A stretch of DNA of 64,000 nucleotides from Spizellomyces punctatus DAOM BR117 (Eukaryota; Chytridiomycota; Chytridiomycetes; Spizellomycetales; Spizellomycetaceae). Positions 29,041 through 37,652 of the stretch are shown in pieces. Both the position numbers and the translations under genes were made by a program. The notes beneath the pieces were generated by a model. That model did not search any database and had not been told where the DNA came from. It saw nothing but the letters and a program-made list of their open reading frames with translations. The stretch covers positions 196,976-260,975 of the forward strand of contig NW_015971542.1 in the NCBI RefSeq assembly GCF_000182565.1, given 5' to 3'. The first letter of the stretch is position 1, and each line of letters opens with the position of its first letter.

Positions 29041-30152
29041 TGCTCGAATAGAGGCAAAATTGGAGAATACGGAAGGCTTATAAGCCTGTTGATTGAAAGC
29101 ACTTGCTATCATTTTCTTTCCAAAGAATTGGGCAATCGGCGTGACCCACGTATAGAGCAAGGCAGGTCAGGCCGCAGCCGTACTCTTCGAAGAGGAAAAA
29201 TGGAGTTGGGTTTTCAATAAATATATCCAATCCGCACTCCGCGCACCTCAACCTGTTCTCCAAGTACGTTCGGGGCTCATGTCTCAGCGACCCAACCAGC
29301 TCGCAAGGGGATTGCTTGAAGCGCGAGCCATACCTGAACGCAAAGGGGCAAGCACGTAGCTTTAACGGGGGCCCATCCCAAGGGATTACCACCCGTTCCT
29401 TCTTGCTCGCAGTAGTACTCATCCCAAAGCTGACTGGTAAGCGCGAGTTACAAGTGCCCGTTATCCGCGCAAGACGGTCTAAGCCCACCCAACTTGCATA
29501 AGCCCTCCGGCACAGCGACCTAGGATCCTCTTTATGTTGTAGTTTGCCACCCGCTGGATGACAAATCCAGTCAAAGAGGACCATAAAATACTGGATGGGG
29601 CCGGCCTTTCTGACAGATTATTCCCGAGGGTCAAATCCCGCCATAATTACCGTCAAAGCGGAGTCTCCACTGCGCAGATGTTCTCGAGCCTTTTGGGCGA
29701 GACAATGCACATTAAAGTCTCTACGCTTCGACACACACTTAGGGTTAGGTTCTCCCAGCGGATCTGCATTTTGGACGAGCCACATCACATGGAGGGCACA
29801 CGATCCAGTTTGCAAATCTTTTGGTTGAAGGCCATGGTGGTCAGGCTGTTACGGGTGCACCAACTTGCGAGAGCAACAAAACCGCATATTATGAAAGGCT
29901 TATACAGGCTTAGCGGATCTTTTGTCGAGAACAGGGAGGCGGGATGAACATCCGGAAGTGGGGAAGAGATGAGGAAAACAGCCAGCGCGACCTGCCGTTG
30001 TTTTTATAGCGCGTAGAGCTACAACCCTGGTGGCTGGCTGTTTCATTTAGGATCCCTGTGACGTAAACTGTTCAAAGTCAGCTCGTCCCCGTGGGAGGAT
30101 GGGGGAGCATCTTTACACATCTGCATCCGCCATCTTCTTTCTTCAAAGTACA
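29041..30152. other. unresolved 1.1 kb with open frames on both strands
   Basis: On the minus strand a long frame (stop at 29078, possible ATG near 29427 reading MSTTASKKERVVIPWDGPPL) includes a Cys pair RCAECGLDIF. A second minus-strand stretch at about 29940-29620 has a hydrophobic run (SLYKPFIICGFVALASW) followed by pieces such as DPLGEPNPK. It could be one or two small genes; the second looks like a small single-pass mitochondrial protein, but I could not fix a start or the introns. The plus strand is open too. I assign no function. Confidence 0.25.
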
Positions 30153-30966
30153 ATGCCCTCCATTACGAAATACGTTTGGAGTATCTTGCTTGGTCATGTC
30201 GGCGAAAATGCGCATCCTCTGCATCCCGGTGGGTATCTAGTATGTTTTCTTGCCATTGGAGGCACGCACATTGACGCTGTTTGTATGATACATAGCGGTT
30301 GTGCATGTTCCAGCTACCCTGTACCCTGTCGCATTTGCCAGTGATGTTGTAGGGCTTTTTATGGACAGGTAAATATAAATATGTTTTCTGGATTCTTTTC
30401 AACTGATGATACAGTGCTGAGCTGGTCAACTCTACGTTGAAGCAGGTTTCCGCCTGTGCTCTCTTTTGTAACCTCTAGGGGCCTTTACGCATTTAGTTAT
30501 TATGCAACGGCTGCTTCCCTCATCTCAACCATCCCAGCTGCATTGACTGGCTTTGCGGAGTTCTTCACCATCAATAAGGAGAGGAGCCCGGAGGCAAACC
30601 GGACCGCATATTGGCACGCAGGACTGAACATTAGTGCTGGTATGTAATGAGTGGTATCATGACTTGCGCGCACTTGGGCATTAAATGACTGGTATCCCAT
30701 AACCAGTTGCGATTGCATTGTTCAACTTCCTTACCAAGCGTCAAACGGTGGATTTTGCCCCTTACAAGTTCAACATCTTCCTGTCAGGTGTAGGACTGAC
30801 GGGAGTCTTGTACAGCGTGTACCTGGGCGGAACGCTGGTATACAAACATGGTGTTGGAGTCAGAAGAATGGGGGAAGGAAAAAAGGCCAAGGTTATCGAA
30901 GGCAATCCAAACTACGACCTGGACTCTGAGTTGGGTGTGCCTCAAGTAGGGAAAGGTTGCTGTTGA
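30153..30966 (+). CDS. DUF2231-type multi-pass membrane protein
   Basis: Four exons (30153-30228, 30296-30368, 30446-30639, 30707-30966) give 200 aa. HPLHPAVVHVPATLYPVAFA at the first splice matches the DUF2231 signature (HP...VHFP). At least four hydrophobic segments follow: ASDVVGLFM, FSYYATAASLISTIPAALTGF, HAGLNISAVAIALFNFL and FLSGVGLTGVLYSVYLGGTLV. The C-terminal tail is soluble and basic, then YDLDSELGVPQVGKGCC, with a terminal Cys pair that might be lipidated (inference). The family is widespread in bacteria and fungi; its role is unknown. Confidence 0.85.
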
Positions 30967-31071
30967 CTTGAAAACAGGGCTTGAATCGTGCAGATTTCAA
31001 TAGTCTCGCAAAACTATCCATTTTACAATGTGCCCATGTGTAGTAGTTAAAAAAACAATTGACTGCAACTC

Positions 31072-31170
31072 CTCACCTACCAAATAGTGACCGTACACAG
31101 CCTGGCAGCACGGCTTTGTCAAGTCGACGCACTGTCCGATACGGCCGGACAGCAGTGCACGGACAGAGTC
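31072..31170 (+). repeat. promoter-like module, copy 1
   Basis: About 100 bases beginning CTCACCTACCAAATAGTGACCG, sharing blocks with copies at 33077 and 34616: TCAAGTCGA, the inverted repeat CTGTCCG-ATACGGC-CGGACAG (31132-31152) and AGTGCACGGAC. It lacks the CCAATCA found in copies 2 and 3. Confidence 0.75.
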
Positions 31171-31507
31171 CGCGCTTTTGCGTGTCTTCGACTGCACCTT
31201 ACCACTGCGGGTACTTTTCTGGAGGGACTGATGGTAGATGAAGGGTCCCGGGCTGTCGTGACCTATAACGAAGTAGAGACAATGCTGGTGAATATCGGTG
31301 GTCTAGCGCCCCCTGGCCAGTTTTAGAAGGTACCGCCCAACATTTGAGATACTTTTCGTCTTGTATCTCGCCCATTGCTGTTGCAAATCAATAAATTGGA
31401 CATTATGGGCAAGTGGCAGCTCAGAATACATAGTCTATTATAATGTGCTCAGAACTACGAGACACCACTGATCCTTCCTGTTCCAAATCGCATTACAAAG
31501 TGACGCG
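31171..31507 (+). repeat. duplicated flank, copy A
   Basis: A 337-base block closely similar to 36474-36775. Shared runs include CGCGCTTTTGCGTGTC, CTGCACCTTACCACTGCGGG, TTTTCTGGAGGGACTGATGG, GAGACAATGCTGGTGAATAT and CAAATCAATAAATT. It lies immediately upstream of the BMT5-like start codon. Confidence 0.85.
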
Positions 31508-31548
31508 AGTCGAACCTGAATTTTTGTTTAACACAGCTCCAACTCGCC

Positions 31549-32451
31549 ATGGGCAAACGGAAATCTCGCCCTCACCCCAGTAAAATATCAAAAAGCACAG
31601 CGCCTTCCCAACGCTTCCCCACTCTCTCCTCCCTCACCAGAACGGAGCTCCTTCTGCAAACTTTAAGAACGTCCCAGCCTTCCAATCCCGCACACCCATT
31701 CAAACTAAACCAACGGATTCTCCTCATTGGCGAAGGCGACTTTTCGTATGCTCGTGCTCTCGCAACTTCCCTTGGCAAAGGCCAGAATATCATCGCAACA
31801 TCCTTTGACACTAAGCCGGCGCTGATACAAAAGTACCCGCATGTGCAGACCATACTGGGTGAACTGGTGTCTTCCGGTGTGACAATTCTTCATAACGTCG
31901 ACGCAACCGCCCTCACTTCCAACAGCAGGTTGAGCGCTCTTACGGCACAAAACAAGTTTGATCGTATCGTTTTTCAGTTCCCGCATGTGGGAGGGAGTCA
32001 GCAGGCCGATGTTGAGCAAAACAGGGCCCTCTTATCAAACTTTTTCGCCCAGGCACAGCAATTGATGAATGCTAATGGTGAAATCCACGTAACGCTACGG
32101 GATACTCCTTTTTACCGACAGTGGAGCATTGAGGATCTGGCCTTGAAAGAAGGTTTGGCAATGAAACAGCGTGTTCCGTTCGAAGGGGAGCGGATGCAGG
32201 CGCTTGGCTATACACCTCAAAGGACCCATCCGGCTGTTCGGGATGCTCCGACCCTTGAGAACGCCTTTGTGCACGTTTTCGAGATGCGGGCCGACAAGCC
32301 TGCTACAAAAAAGAAGGAAGATATTCCATCGCATGGGCTGGCAAGGAACATGAAAACAGCATCAGCGTCGACCATACCCAAAAAGTCGAGGGCCGGTGCC
32401 ATTGGCAAAAAACCGAAACAGATGCGCGGAAAAAGGGGAACAAAGAGATGA
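31549..32451 (+). CDS. BMT5: 25S rRNA (uridine-N3)-methyltransferase-like, Bmt5 family (DUF2431)
   Basis: Single exon, 300 aa. A basic N-terminal tail (MGKRKSRPHPSKISK) precedes the SAM-binding core: RILLIGEGDFSYARALA (motif I) and ATSFDTKP. Further on are FDRIVFQFPHVGG and GEIHVTLRDTPFYRQW. The C-terminus is strongly basic (KKPKQMRGKRGTKR), consistent with nucleolar rRNA binding. Yeast Bmt5 makes m3U2634 in 25S rRNA. It sits inside the repeat-rich block yet is intact and intronless, so it looks like a functional gene whose 5' flank is repeat-derived. Confidence 0.9.
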   Translation: MGKRKSRPHPSKISKSTAPSQRFPTLSSLTRTELLLQTLRTSQPSNPAHPFKLNQRILLIGEGDFSYARALATSLGKGQNIIATSFDTKPALIQKYPHVQTILGELVSSGVTILHNVDATALTSNSRLSALTAQNKFDRIVFQFPHVGGSQQADVEQNRALLSNFFAQAQQLMNANGEIHVTLRDTPFYRQWSIEDLALKEGLAMKQRVPFEGERMQALGYTPQRTHPAVRDAPTLENAFVHVFEMRADKPATKKKEDIPSHGLARNMKTASASTIPKKSRAGAIGKKPKQMRGKRGTKR

Positions 32452-33076
32452 CAGGATCTGAATATGGCATCACAACAGGATATTTCCGCCAGACTATGCA
32501 CTAGCTTTAAGGTAGGGAAGGACCCCAACGCGCCATTATTCTCGGCTTCATCGTCTGTTACCCTTTGCGAAACCAAAATTTGTCACAGTGTGGGCATCTC
32601 TTCTCGGGTCACCATGTCGGCGAAGTTGTTTCATCTAAAGTTAGAGCCCGTCAATGCCTCTGACACCTCAAATGTAGATATAACAGTGATGTATCATTAT
32701 TTATACACGTCAATTGCTTCAACTCGCGTGATGTAGCAGAGTACGGCATTCTCGCGCGTAGTGATCGCCATATTTGCACTAGCTCTTACCGTAAGAAGTT
32801 TCAGGGCTAGCATTTCGTATGCCACACATTACGCATATAATGCGAATCTAAACCCTTGTTTCATGAATACAGGTTATACTTGATATATGGACACCTCTGT
32901 TCATGTACCACTCCTACACCGTTAAACAATTGGCACCCCATTATGTAGGTTATATAGTGCATTAACTCAGTACATGCGCCCAGTCACCGCCCATATCTTC
33001 TCGCAATCTTGGTTACAGTGTGCCATAAAAGGGTGTTCTTATTATTATTACGTTCGACCGCAGTCGAGTTTCTTTT
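32452..33076. other. intergenic, 3' of BMT5-like gene
   Basis: A 90-codon open frame starts 12 bases after the stop (32464-32736), with no recognisable family. The rest is AT-rich with no feature seen. Confidence 0.35.
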
Positions 33077-33192
33077 GCACCTGCTAAATAGTAACCGTAC
33101 ACAGTCTGGTCAAGTCGAAGGACTACAGTTCTGTCCGATAGGCCGGACAGCAACGACGCGCTTAGTGCACGGACCGGGCCAATCAGAGTGCA
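33077..33192 (+). repeat. promoter-like module, copy 2
   Basis: Begins GCACCTGCTAAATAGTAACCG. It carries CTGTCCG-ATAGGC-CGGACAG (33131-33150), TTAGTGCACGGACCGGGCC and a CCAATCA box (33179-33185). A TATAAA follows at 33204-33209. The minisatellite lies about 190 bases further on. Confidence 0.75.
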
Positions 33193-33393
33193 CGCAAATT
33201 TCCTATAAAGTCACCGTGTCGCCCCAGCTTTTCGCGCACTTCCACACTGCTCACAGGGCACCTCATCTGTTGCGACGGTACGAGGTGAAGTCCATTGCGA
33301 TGGCCCCAAGTTAGGTCAATCCCACCCCGGGTGTCTGCGGAGACCTGGGAGGATGTGCATTGCGATGCCGGCTTTGACCGAAGCGTAGAGCGA

Positions 33394-33643
33394 GCTCCAC
33401 TTTTGCAGATGCGTTCTGCACTACTTTGCCGCAGATGCGTTCTGCTCCACTTTTGCAGATGCGTTCTGCTCTACTTTGCCGCAGATGCGTTCTGCACTAC
33501 TTTTGCAGATGCGTTCTGCTCTACTTTGCCGCAGATGCGTTCTGCTCCACTTTTGCAGATGCGTTCTGCTCTACTTTGCCGCAGATGCGTTCTGCTCTAC
33601 TTTTGCAGATGCGTTCTGCTCCACTTCTGCAGATGCGTTCTGC
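33394..33643 (+). repeat. minisatellite, ten alternating 24/26-base units
   Basis: Ten copies of GCAGATGCGTTCTGC, joined alternately by a spacer ending ...ACTTTT and one ending ...ACTTTGCC. Each core is a mini-hairpin (GCAGA-TGCGT-TCTGC). The array is open in several plus frames and would encode Cys/Leu-rich repeats, but codon use is dictated by the repeat. Confidence 0.92.
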
Positions 33644-34615
33644 TGATGTGTTCTGCTCCAATCGCAGCTGGTCTGCGCAGCGATTGCTCCCATTCGCGGA
33701 ACGGGGATGAGGGATGTGAGGATCCGAGGTTTAGGTGGGATTGTCAGGGTGTGTTCAATTGATTCTGCAGCTGGTCTGCTTCAATTACGACGGCATATAC
33801 TAACTGCTTGTGCTCCATTTCTTTTACATAGTGATTGCCAGTTGACCGTTCGTGGAGTCGCCATGATTACCGGGCCCGCGTCCTTAACCGCAAGCACCTC
33901 TGTGATCGGTGAAAGCGGGTTGCACTCGGAGTGTTTTGTGGATTTGTGGATCAGTTAGAGCATTTGCTTGGGGGGGGATGTCGCACGATACTAGTAGGAA
34001 AAGTTGGAAAACGGAGGATATCGGACAATGTCGGTGGTAAATAGTTGCCACGATATATCAAAGTAGCTACATGATTTGATGAATGTATCTTGAGACGCAG
34101 GGAAACATTTATGGATGTGAGCCAAGCTGGAGAGCACGCATTATCTAATGGCCAGGCATGCGTAGGTTTTGGGAAGGAAGAAAGCTCTGAATAACTTGAC
34201 GTGACAGATGCGTGATAGAGTCGGCCACCCCACTTTCCATATTCCTTAGCTTTTACAATGAAATCACGAAAAGTATAGGTATACTTACCTGAGTGGGTGA
34301 GAGATGCGCTACGACAAGCAAGTGATGCACAGTGATGCAATGCCTCTATATACACGGAATGCGTGAAGGACTAAAATAAGTGTAAAAGATATGGCGCAAT
34401 CAAAGACGTTTTACGGGATAAATGCATGATATAGAATATAGAGAACTGCTTCCATAGGATATGAATAACAATAAGCTGCATCTTGTGTTTTATCCGGTCT
34501 TCTGTCGAGTGTGTTGCGCGCACGCATTTCCACTAGTTTTGTTGCATTACCTCGGGCGCTCACAGTATTTCGCTTTCGGTATGTAATTAAGGCTTAACGG
34601 AGTTTCTTTCAAAAG
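33644..34615. other. intergenic, about 1 kb, no supported gene
   Basis: It holds a G-run (33971-33979) and a 134-codon minus-strand open frame (33951-34355) that has no recognisable features. I saw nothing else. Confidence 0.35.
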
Positions 34616-34735
34616 CTCACCTCCTACATAATGACGGTAACAGCTGCCGACTGTCTTTGTGAAGTCGAAGGACTGTCCGATACTCTCGGACAGCTTAGTG
34701 CACGGACCGGGCCAATCAGATTGCTCGCACGTTAT
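34616..34735 (+). repeat. promoter-like module, copy 3
   Basis: Begins CTCACCTCCTACATAATGACGG. It carries CTGTCCG-ATACTCT-CGGACAG (34673-34693), TTAGTGCACGGACCGGGCC and CCAATCA (34712-34718). It lies directly upstream of a TATA box and the two-exon orphan gene. Confidence 0.78.
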
Positions 34736-34779
34736 CGGATTACGCGTGGCGCAGGAATGTACCCCTTGACGCGTTCGCC

Positions 34780-34787
34780 TATATAAA
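34780..34787 (+). promoter_or_regulatory. TATA box of orphan gene
   Basis: TATATAAA, 62 bases after the CCAATCA of repeat copy 3 and about 90 bases before the ATG at 34878. A CT-rich leader lies between. The arrangement is that of a strong fungal core promoter. Confidence 0.6.
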
Positions 34788-34877
34788 GGGGGTGTTCTAC
34801 CCCATCGTCTTCCCCATCAACTTTCTCCTTTCGACATCTGCCGTCAACGTTCCCTCTTCTACATCCGCCGCAGAAGT

Positions 34878-35276
34878 ATGAAAGACATCGCCGAGCCTCT
34901 CATACCCCACAAGTACTTTACTGGGCAACACCCGCAAGTATGGAGCCCCCAACAGTTTTGGGCTAACGGCGGATCAAAGTTGGAACACCCCGCGAATGTC
35001 TATTACCGCTCATTGGAGCATATCAGGAATAATGAAGAAGGTTTTGCCGCCGAGCGGGCAGCTCAATTGCTGGACAAATATGATGTGAGTTATTTTGCTA
35101 GTTCTACTTGTCTGCATCTCAGTGGTAGTGGTGATGCCTGCGCGTATCTCTTCAACTTTCCTGTTTGCGCGCATTCGTAGCTGAGCTACGCGTCCGATGC
35201 CAAACAGCTTGGGACATTGGAAGCTAAGGAGCAGCACCGTTACAGGTGGACTTTTCGAAATCCTCCAGAGCGGTAA
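34878..35276 (+). CDS. orphan two-exon gene, 100 aa
   Basis: Exons 34878-35084 and 35181-35276, phase 0, with a GTGAGT donor and a CGTAG acceptor. The product has no signal peptide or membrane segment. It reads MKDIAEPLIPHKYFTGQHPQ at the start, then HIRNNEEGFAAERAAQLLDK, and a charged C-terminus DAKQLGTLEAKEQHRYRW. I do not recognise a family. A TATA box, a CCAAT box and repeat copy 3 lie in the right positions for its promoter, which argues that it is transcribed. It could be a lineage-specific gene or a passenger of a mobile element. Confidence 0.55.
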
Positions 35277-35733
35277 CGCGATGCTGAACATGCGGCACAA
35301 TGACAGTAGTCATATGTGATCCATGGGTGGAGCGGCTCATGCTATGACCCCCTCTACGCTGCTCCTCCAGCGCAGTCTTCACCATGATAGCCTCCCCTAA
35401 CTCTTCCCCACGTGCCGCGATACTTTCGTTGGTGCACGGATTTGAAATCGGTGCGAAGAGGCGAAATCGGCGCGAGGGCTCGGTGTTCGGGGAACTACCA
35501 CTGACGCGCAAGTGGATTTACATTACTGACCCATCCGTCCTCAGTCTGTCATCTTTAGACTTAAGGGCCGGAAACATGGATGCATTTCGCGTTGTTGAAT
35601 TGGCAGTTGAATCGACGAGCAAAGACATATCCTGCTCCACCGGTCTACCAAACAGTATGCCAACCTCTTAATATCTGATAGTATCTCCGTCAAGGTACGT
35701 AACTAACAAGCCTGAAACGTCTATTGTGCCTCC
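35277..35733. other. intergenic with one 95-codon open frame
   Basis: A plus-strand frame at 35384-35671 (MIASPNSSPRAAILSLVHGF...) has no known match to me and no intron signals. The minus strand is open too (35224-35511). Left unassigned. Confidence 0.3.
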
Positions 35734-35797
35734 GGAGATGAACGTGTTGTGTCCGTGGGAGAAGCGTCACGTCCACGGACACGACACGTTCATCTCC
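35734..35797. repeat. 25-base inverted repeat with 14-base loop
   Basis: Left arm 35734-35758 (starts GGAGATGAACGTGTTG) and right arm 35773-35797 are reverse complements with one mismatch. It abuts the start of the 106-base tandem repeats. Confidence 0.9.
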
Positions 35798-36030
35798 CAC
35801 GTCTGGCATAGCTAGGGGTTTGGTCGTTCACGTCCGCGACGCGCCCTGTAAGGAGGCCGTCCGAGGGGTCTGTCGCGTCCACGGACACAACGCGTCCATC
35901 TTCCATGTCTGGCGCAGCAAGGGGTTTGGTCGTTCACGTCCGCGACGCGCCCTATGAGGAGGCCGTCCCAGGGGTTTGTTGCGTCCGCGTAGCAAGGGCG
36001 TTTGGTTGTTCACGTCCGCGGACACGCCGA
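35790..36030 (+). repeat. 106-base tandem repeats, two copies plus a partial
   Basis: Copies start at about 35790 and 35896, with a degenerate partial from about 35991. Shared runs include GGGGTTTGGTCGTTCACGTC and CCGCGACGCGCCCT. The unit contains GTCCACGGACAC, itself a near-palindrome shared with the adjacent inverted repeat. Confidence 0.88.
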
Positions 36031-36473
36031 CGGGGTACGTGGTTTTCACTGGGCGAACATCACATTGCATGGCAGGCTTGATGTTGTCCCACCGTCATAT
36101 CCTTCTTTTGTATCGTTAAGCGGCATCCACCCGGTAAGTGTGCGATCAGAGAATGGATGGGTGAGAAATCCTCCGGCGAGAGGAACCACGAATGCAATAG
36201 TTGTCGCTTTTTCCCTTCGCACGTACCTGCTGGAAGGTGCCATCTTACGACTTTGGGATAGCATCTTTCACTACAGAGGCGTTACCTCTTGCCCACGGAA
36301 ATTACGCAAGATGTTGCGGAAAGGATGTGCTTTGACGCATCTGACTAAACCTCTGAAGTTGCTACGACACCTGGGGCTTCTGACACAGCTAGGGGTCGAT
36401 GACCGCCTTTGTTGGATTCGCCGTCGTTGCATTTTCCCGGTTGGTGTTGCAAGGTGATGAACCCGCGCTTTTG
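36031..36473. other. intergenic between repeat blocks
   Basis: A 151-codon plus frame (36002-36457) begins inside the tandem repeat, and overlapping minus frames occur. None shows a known domain; I regard them as chance frames in GC-rich repeat-flanking DNA. Confidence 0.3.
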
Positions 36474-36775
36474 CGTGTCGTCGACTGCACCTTACCACTG
36501 CGGGTACTTTTCTGGAGGGACTGATGGTAGATGAAAGATCCCTTTAGGGGTTGTCGGGACCTATGACAAAGTAGAGACAATGCTGGTGAATATGCATTTG
36601 AGATACTTTTTCGTCTTGTATCTCGCCCATTACTGTTGCAAATCAATAAATTAGTGATTGCTGAACATTATGGGCAACTGGCAACTCAGAATAGACACTA
36701 TATTGTGCTCAGAAACAACTACGAGAAACCACTGATCCTTCTTTTGCTAAATCGCATTATTAACAGTCTGACGCG
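36474..36775 (+). repeat. duplicated flank, copy B
   Basis: Matches 31171-31507 in the same orientation with scattered substitutions and one ~46-base deletion after GGTGAATAT. It ends about 100 bases before the RraA-like start codon. Confidence 0.85.
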
Positions 36776-36878
36776 TACACCTGGGCTTTGTCCGGATTCA
36801 TCTTTGTACAATTGCACATTGCAGTTGCACTTGCTTCAGAAGGATAATCTACTGTAACACTGCAGCCAACTCAACACT

Positions 36879-37652
36879 ATGTCGGCCACAGCTATATCTA
36901 CAGCCCGTGCTGCATCACTTCTTCGTGAATTCGGCAGCTGTGAGCTCGCAGATGCGCTCACAAAGTTATCCATCCCAGCACACATCCCCAACGTTGTCCT
37001 TCGTTCGCCAGATCCTTCCTCCTCATCTTTCTCTTCAACTCGCATCTGCGGTCCCGCACATACAGTAGAGTTTGTTCCTGCAACAGATACCGTCTCACCT
37101 CGGCTTCCTTCCTCCATTCCCCACCACGTTGATGTCGCACCGAAAGATTCCGTTATTGTTATCAAGGCTCCGCTAACCACACCTAATGCCGTATGGGGAG
37201 GGTTAATGTCTGCTAGGGCGTCCCAGTTGGGTTGCGTGGGGGTAGTTGTGGAGGGTCGCATTCGGGATTTGAGAGAACATTGGGGCTTGAATTTTCCCGT
37301 CTTCTCCTCGGGCACATCGACCTTGGGTGCATCACCTTACGTGCGTGTTACCAGTGTAGGTGAGCCAATAACATTAGGAACAGAGTGTGGATGGCCCGTA
37401 GTGGTGCGTAATGGCGACATGATTGTTGCGGATATTGATGGGGTTGTACGAGTCCCGTTGGATCGTGTAGAGGAGGTCGTTCAAGTCGCGCAGAAAGGGG
37501 TAGAGACTGATGCAAAGTGTATGAAGGATCTGCTGAATGGGAGGAGCATTGTAGATGCATTTGCGGAACATCGCGGAAAGAAAAAAGGTGTGTACTTCAT
37601 TTCATTACAAGAGTCTCATCATGTAAACTAATGTCCTTTAGCAACATCCTAG
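36879..37652 (+). CDS. RraA-like aldolase/decarboxylase family protein
   Basis: Exons 36879-37587 and 37642-37652 give 239 aa; the last exon encodes only three residues. Family hallmarks are the N-terminal FGSCELADAL, ICGPAHTVEF and AVWGGLMSARASQLGCVGVV. The active-site segment VVEGRIRDL has the Arg and metal-coordinating Asp, followed by NFPVFSSGTS and VRNGDMIVADIDGVVRVP. Relatives are HMG aldolases and oxaloacetate decarboxylases (yeast YER010C); some bacterial members inhibit RNase E. Enzymatic residues are kept, so it is probably an active pyruvate-enolate lyase. The upstream flank is duplicated (copy B). Confidence 0.87.

Follow-up and report, generated by a model that had tools for sequence, protein, structure and literature searches.

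A duplicated promoter-like module with a TGTCCG-N7-CGGACA dyad, found upstream of the orphan gene SPPG_03776 in Spizellomyces punctatus

Sites of the Zn2Cys6 (Gal4-type) regulators of fungi are composed of inverted CCG/CGG half-sites with a preferred spacing. To our knowledge, the known cis-regulatory sites of chytrids are very few. Here we describe a module of about 100 bp from the chytrid Spizellomyces punctatus DAOM BR117, built around a CTGTCCG/CGGACAG palindrome (hereafter the dyad), of which three diverged copies lie in a window of 64,000 bases (C6:196976-260975; genome of 23,997,880 bases in 29 contigs). C6 and C4 are contig names, and coordinates without a contig name are window positions. 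The third copy sits 5' of the annotated orphan gene SPPG_03776. With moderate confidence, we favor reading the module as the promoter of a small, mostly decayed and lineage-restricted gene family, in which SPPG_03776 would be the one intact member behind such a promoter.

The three copies in the window and their parts are the following:

31072..31167, + strand: copy 1, truncated, with the left blocks, the dyad and AGTGCACGGACA, and with neither CCAAT nor TATA box
31132..31152, + strand: dyad of copy 1, spacer 7
33076..33196, + strand: copy 2, with CCAAT box; gene test behind it negative
33131..33150, + strand: dyad of copy 2, spacer 6, one base below the other four copies
33179..33196, + strand: extended CCAAT box CCAATCAGAGTGCACGCA of copy 2
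33204..33209, + strand: TATA box (TATAAA) of copy 2
34616..34729, + strand: copy 3, intact
34673..34693, + strand: dyad of copy 3, spacer 7
34712..34729, + strand: extended CCAAT box CCAATCAGATTGCTCGCA of copy 3
34780..34789, + strand: TATA box (TATATAAAGG) of copy 3

The three copies lie on one strand and have identical 7-bp palindrome arms; their spacers measure 7, 6 and 7 bases. Such a palindrome was present in none of 100 dinucleotide shuffles of the window. The similarity between copies is far beyond chance: pairwise local alignments scored 53, 81 and 69, whereas the best of 300 shuffles for each pair reached 31, 29 and 31. The homologous stretches are 31072-31164 with 34616-34707, 31074-31154 with 33078-33152, and 33101-33196 with 34650-34729, and copy-to-copy scores range from 209 to 272, against at most 135 elsewhere within the window. 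Copies 2 and 3 have in common a 37-base stretch with 35 identical positions, which ends in CCAATCAGA(G/T)TGC(A/T)CGCA, and each has a TATA box beyond it; in copy 1, neither CCAATCA nor TATA was matched in the examined stretch. Palindrome positions, shuffles and alignments thus confirm what had been predicted from the sequence alone, namely three diverged copies with the same block order and, in copies 2 and 3, CCAATCA followed by TATA.

A looser form of the palindrome led us to two extra copies, which share the contig with the window copies at distances of about 93-96 and 192-196 kb:

C6:35810, + strand: remote copy
C6:135412, - strand: remote copy

Both keep three parts, which are TGTCCG-N7-CGGACA, a CCAATCAGAGTGC box 13-31 bp past the dyad, and a TATA box. 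From the end of the dyad, CCAATCA (as CCAATCAGA(G/T)TGC) lies at 29 bp in copy 2, 19 in copy 3, 13 in C6:35810 and 31 in C6:135412, and the TATA box at 54, 87, 62 and 107 bp, respectively. The remote copies were chosen by the dyad alone and the CCAAT block was noticed afterwards; among 46 other listed sites of spacer 6-7 that we inspected, only two have CCAATCA at this position, and they are the two remote copies. A profile of the four copies finds those copies and copy 1 (E 7e-4) in 312,742 bases, and the next match (E 0.05) is to the dyad alone. At four other distinct places in the loci examined, CCAATCAGA is not followed by the GTGC extension, and we rejected these sites as modules. In the remote copies there is no conservation of the left blocks or of AGTGCACGGAC, which are therefore marks of recent local copying, while the dyad, the CCAAT block and the TATA box mark constraint. 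The spacer is 7 in four of the five copies, copy 2 with 6 being the exception. When copy 3, copy 2 and the region 31000-36900 were used as DNA queries, no further module copies were returned; since the two remote ones escaped these searches as well, there may be others of greater divergence. A sensitive alignment of the module to loci L006-L045 was unconvincing (best scores 182, 168 and 162, shuffle maximum 170).

We then compared what lies downstream of each copy, starting from two features:

34878..35084, + strand: first exon of SPPG_03776 (69 aa), 100% identical to the read protein
33394..33644, + strand: minisatellite with a 50-bp period (not a multiple of 3), at the expected gene place behind copy 2

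The annotated SPPG_03776 protein has 86 aa, with the last 17 residues placed at 35545-35598, and upstream of its start the palindrome centre lies at 195 bp and the TATA box at about 98 bp. One further readable relative is found in the genome, at C4:477134 (39% identity over residues 4-67, with one stop). Among similar-length proteins of a large database the only relative of SPPG_03776 is itself, no Pfam family matches it at cut-off, and a literature search for its name gave no match. Behind the TATA box of C6:35810 there is an SPPG_03776-like relic, a frameshifted reading with frameshift-aware scores of 50 with SPPG_03776 and 54 with the paralogue, which none of 150 random genomic segments reached (highest 31 and 38). 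Behind C6:135412 the score with the paralogue is 43, again reached by no random segment out of 150 (highest 38). Shuffle tests without frameshifts pointed the same way, the numbers of shuffles out of 1000 that reached the score (SPPG_03776/paralogue) being 3/15 for C6:35810, 862/6 for C6:135412 and 144/861 for copy 2. Overall, copy 3 is followed by an intact gene, C6:35810 by a relic, C6:135412 by a match to one of the two queries, copy 2 by none and copy 1 by the BMT5-like gene described below. As in copy 2, a short tandem repeat occurs soon past the TATA box of C6:135412.

To see how the dyad behaves across the genome, we searched it at decreasing stringency. Exact CTGTCCG-N5-8-CGGACAG has three genome matches, which are copies 1-3, and the reversed-pattern control has one. 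The original prediction of a dispersed module therefore fails in this exact form, and an absence of other copies, which it had named as speaking against itself, is what we find for the exact 7-bp arms but not for the core TGTCCG-N7-CGGACA. With up to three mismatches at spacer 7 there is little signal (755 matches, 670 in the control). The shorter GTCCG...CGGAC occurs at 54 sites genome-wide with spacers 6-7, compared to 25 in the reversed control, while the corresponding numbers are 79 and 85 at spacers 8-13 and 71 and 87 at spacers 0-5. Judged by the other 12 spacers, 25 sites would be expected in place of the 54 (Poisson P 3e-7; conditional binomial P 4e-6, and 2e-5 without the three window copies).

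Counts per spacer and flank tests refer to 50 listed sites of each set. Among them, spacer 7 accounts for 30 sites and spacer 6 for 20, followed by spacer 12 (15) and spacer 0 (12). The T...A flanks that extend the arms to TGTCCG...CGGACA, of which about 1.3 are expected per spacer, occur in 12 of 30 sites at spacer 7, 3 of 20 at spacer 6 and 5 of 50 at spacers 8-13 (spacer 7 versus 8-13, Fisher P 0.002; 10 of 28 and P 0.008 when copies 1 and 3 are excluded). The dyad is hence enriched genome-wide at spacer 7 and not clearly at spacer 6, and the variation between 6 and 7 that had been presented as expected of a dimeric site is not supported as such. The broader idea of a promoter-like module with a dyad behaving as the site of a dimeric regulator is borne out by the excess at spacers 6-7 and by the CCAAT and TATA boxes of the remote copies.

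Ten TGTCCG-N7-CGGACA sites were listed beyond the window, of which two are module copies and eight are outside the module family. One of the eight (L023) is 74 bp 5' of the start of a gamma-tubulin gene, whose N-terminus was matched; the top matches in that listing, to repeat proteins, had no stretch passing alone and were taken as artefacts. Another (L159) is about 180 bp 5' of the presumed start codon of a gene whose exon has MCM domains, two (L018, L006) are 140-200 bp from the first ATG of frames that are unidentified or weakly matched, and one (L007) is within an open frame of 246 codons. The remaining three are L155, L156 and L160, and L155 (C4:984666) is directly behind the 3' end of a Fanzor-type gene, whose frame matches the solved S. 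punctatus Fanzor with E 3.8e-161. These positions suggest a promoter-like placement. The dyad is plausibly the site of a dimeric regulator, because of the enrichment at spacer 7 and of the two sites 5' of the gamma-tubulin and MCM genes. It unites CCG/CGG half-sites in dyad arrangement with a preferred spacing, two properties expected of Zn2Cys6 sites; a Zn2Cys6 protein is an unproven candidate for its binder, and the Zn_clus domain has 16 matches in the genome and none inside the window. More tentatively, and with considerable doubt, TGTCCG-N7-CGGACA may be recognized by a dimeric chytrid regulator not yet described, whose targets throughout the genome would include genes of growth and division (gamma-tubulin and one MCM helicase subunit) as well as the SPPG_03776 family.

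The surroundings of the window copies contain a second duplication and two identified genes:

31170..31495, + strand: segment S1, direct repeat of S2, which starts where copy 1 breaks off and is now the 5' flank of BMT5
36463..36759, + strand: segment S2, counterpart of S1, preceding the RraA-like gene
31549..32451, + strand: BMT5-like rRNA methyltransferase gene, lying 3' of copy 1 and S1 (Pfam PF10354, E 6.6e-49)
36879..37631, + strand: RraA-like gene (Pfam PF03737, E 1.5e-26)

S1 and S2 are 5.3 kb apart and identical in 274 of 303 ungapped columns, with 74 gap columns besides. The homology of copy 1 stops at AGTGCACGGACA, cut exactly at the edge of S1. Copy 1 is about 400 bp upstream of BMT5, whose nearest relatives among the matches listed are from chytrids (Rhizophlyctis, Powellomyces). 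In BMT5, a host gene, the upstream region was put together from two duplicated pieces. Members of two different dispersed repeat families (34217-34537 and 32904-33035) occur a short way 5' of copies 3 and 2, respectively, with more copies on several other contigs (the counts being lower bounds), and short stretches of 34011-34189 recur at C6:125646-125753 and C6:194713-194767. A 106-bp tandem repeat at 35734-36028 contains a long hairpin whose 25-base arms are 96% complementary, and arrays related to this repeat are found near C6:1.058-1.077 Mb; two weak MIR7486 matches at 35732-35799 are both far below the gathering score. An RNA gene at the module was rejected, as Rfam had no match there and no tRNA was found in the window.

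According to the reading that we favor, the promoter would have three working parts in fixed order, namely the dyad, the extended CCAAT box 13-31 bp downstream and the TATA box. A homodimeric transcription factor would bind TGTCCG-N7-CGGACA; the extended CCAAT box would presumably be bound by the HAP/NF-Y complex and form with TATA a conventional core. We infer that duplications along one arm of contig C6 multiplied the gene together with its promoter and that most copies later decayed. Copy 3 would still drive SPPG_03776, while copy 2 may have retained its boxes and lost its gene to the minisatellite; its spacer of 6, one base short, would break a rigid dimer geometry, which fits a promoter without a gene. 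Copy 1 may have been cut after AGTGCACGGACA when the duplicated 5' flank of the RraA-like gene was joined to it.

Several observations weigh against this reading. The score of C6:135412 with SPPG_03776 itself is only 27, reached by 29 of 150 random segments. There is no gene signal behind copy 2, where the scores were reached by 129 (SPPG_03776) and 110 (paralogue) of 150 random segments, and we rejected a coding relic there, neither test giving a signal. Relative to SPPG_03776, both relic matches start nearer to the TATA box, which requires deletions to be postulated. The paralogue at C4:477134 has no module at its locus; copy 3 aligns to that locus with a score of 190 (shuffle maximum 170), in a loose 288-base alignment that does not involve the module parts. 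As for the dyad, spacer 12 is likewise high (15 of 50 listed sites, three of them one repeated sequence), and without the four spacer-7 sites of the module family the T...A flanks decrease to 8 of 26, compared to 5 of 50 (P 0.027). The flank rule was moreover spotted post hoc, so its P-values flatter.

The module could also be intergenic DNA that was simply duplicated locally and has no present function, its conservation reflecting recent copying. The second duplicated segment of the locus (S1/S2) is in line with this, and so is the distribution of identity: when the copies are aligned by hand, invariant columns (65 of the 83 without gaps) extend over the whole module, beyond the dyad, and their clustering is modest (matched by 2,632 of 100,000 shuffles of the columns). 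For the same reason, the case against neutral decay that the original prediction based on the identity of the arms is weak. However, the remote copies have lost all but the dyad, the CCAAT block and TATA, as selection on those parts predicts, and the genome-wide excess of the dyad is not accounted for. We thus regard plain duplication as unlikely.

A mobile regulatory cassette, in the sense of a short non-autonomous element that carries promoter parts and inserts 5' of genes, had been envisaged from the start. The copies indeed precede unrelated things (BMT5, the minisatellite and SPPG_03776) in one orientation, and copies 2 and 3 have dispersed repeats close on their 5' side. These repeats, however, belong to two different families whose matches stop short of the module; their aligned copies do not extend into it, and we rejected the module as a part of them. 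In addition, all five copies found are on one contig, DNA searches, which had missed the two remote copies too, gave no others, and the module edges are unlike from copy to copy. An inverted-repeat scan of 30000-37000 returned none of at least 16 bases at the module edges, and no terminal inverted repeat or target duplication was seen, shorter repeats and target duplications being judged by eye. With a relic gene behind C6:35810 and a weaker match behind C6:135412, a cassette appears quite improbable.

Still less probable is that the family is part of a transposable element, whose promoter the module would be. C4:477134, like the C4:984666 dyad, is directly behind the 3' end of a Fanzor-type gene, recognized by its DNA likeness to the Fanzor at C4:984666, but around the C6 copies, searched only in part, neither transposase nor terminal repeats nor Fanzor were found, and the family does not go beyond two readable members. 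That the dyad is an RNA or single-stranded DNA hairpin or a recombinase site is hardly credible: perfect 7-bp arms around a 6-7 base loop or core would fit, but two of the three copies fold no better than their shuffles (z -1.19, -2.01, -0.48), no Rfam family matches there, the dyad is 5' of TATA in all four TATA-bearing copies, and the spacer sequences differ, which a recombinase core does not tolerate.

An Agrobacterium transformation method exists for S. punctatus (PMC7213984). The preferred-spacing dyad, the CCAAT block paired with it and the ready test promoters in a transformable species offer a concrete entry to transcription control in chytrids. The locus also illustrates how promoters may be seen outliving the genes that they once served.

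Compared to known systems, the module resembles miniature inverted-repeat transposable element (MITE)-like or promoter-carrying mobile elements in being short, repeated and 5' of genes; unlike them, it has five copies on one contig, with no terminal repeats or target duplications seen. Its dyad shares with Zn2Cys6 sites the inverted CCG/CGG half-sites and the preferred spacing, but is an everted CCG-N7-CGG with a longer TGTCCG half-site; we know of no described factor with exactly this site. CCAATCA, the pentamer plus CA, is upstream of TATA as in HAP/NF-Y CCAAT boxes, from which it differs by the extension GA(G/T)TGC(A/T)(C/T)(G/A)CA, conserved in four copies. In tandemly or segmentally duplicated families, the promoters of paralogues keep core elements after gene decay, as in the module, with the difference that here it is mostly the promoter that survives and less of the coding sequence.

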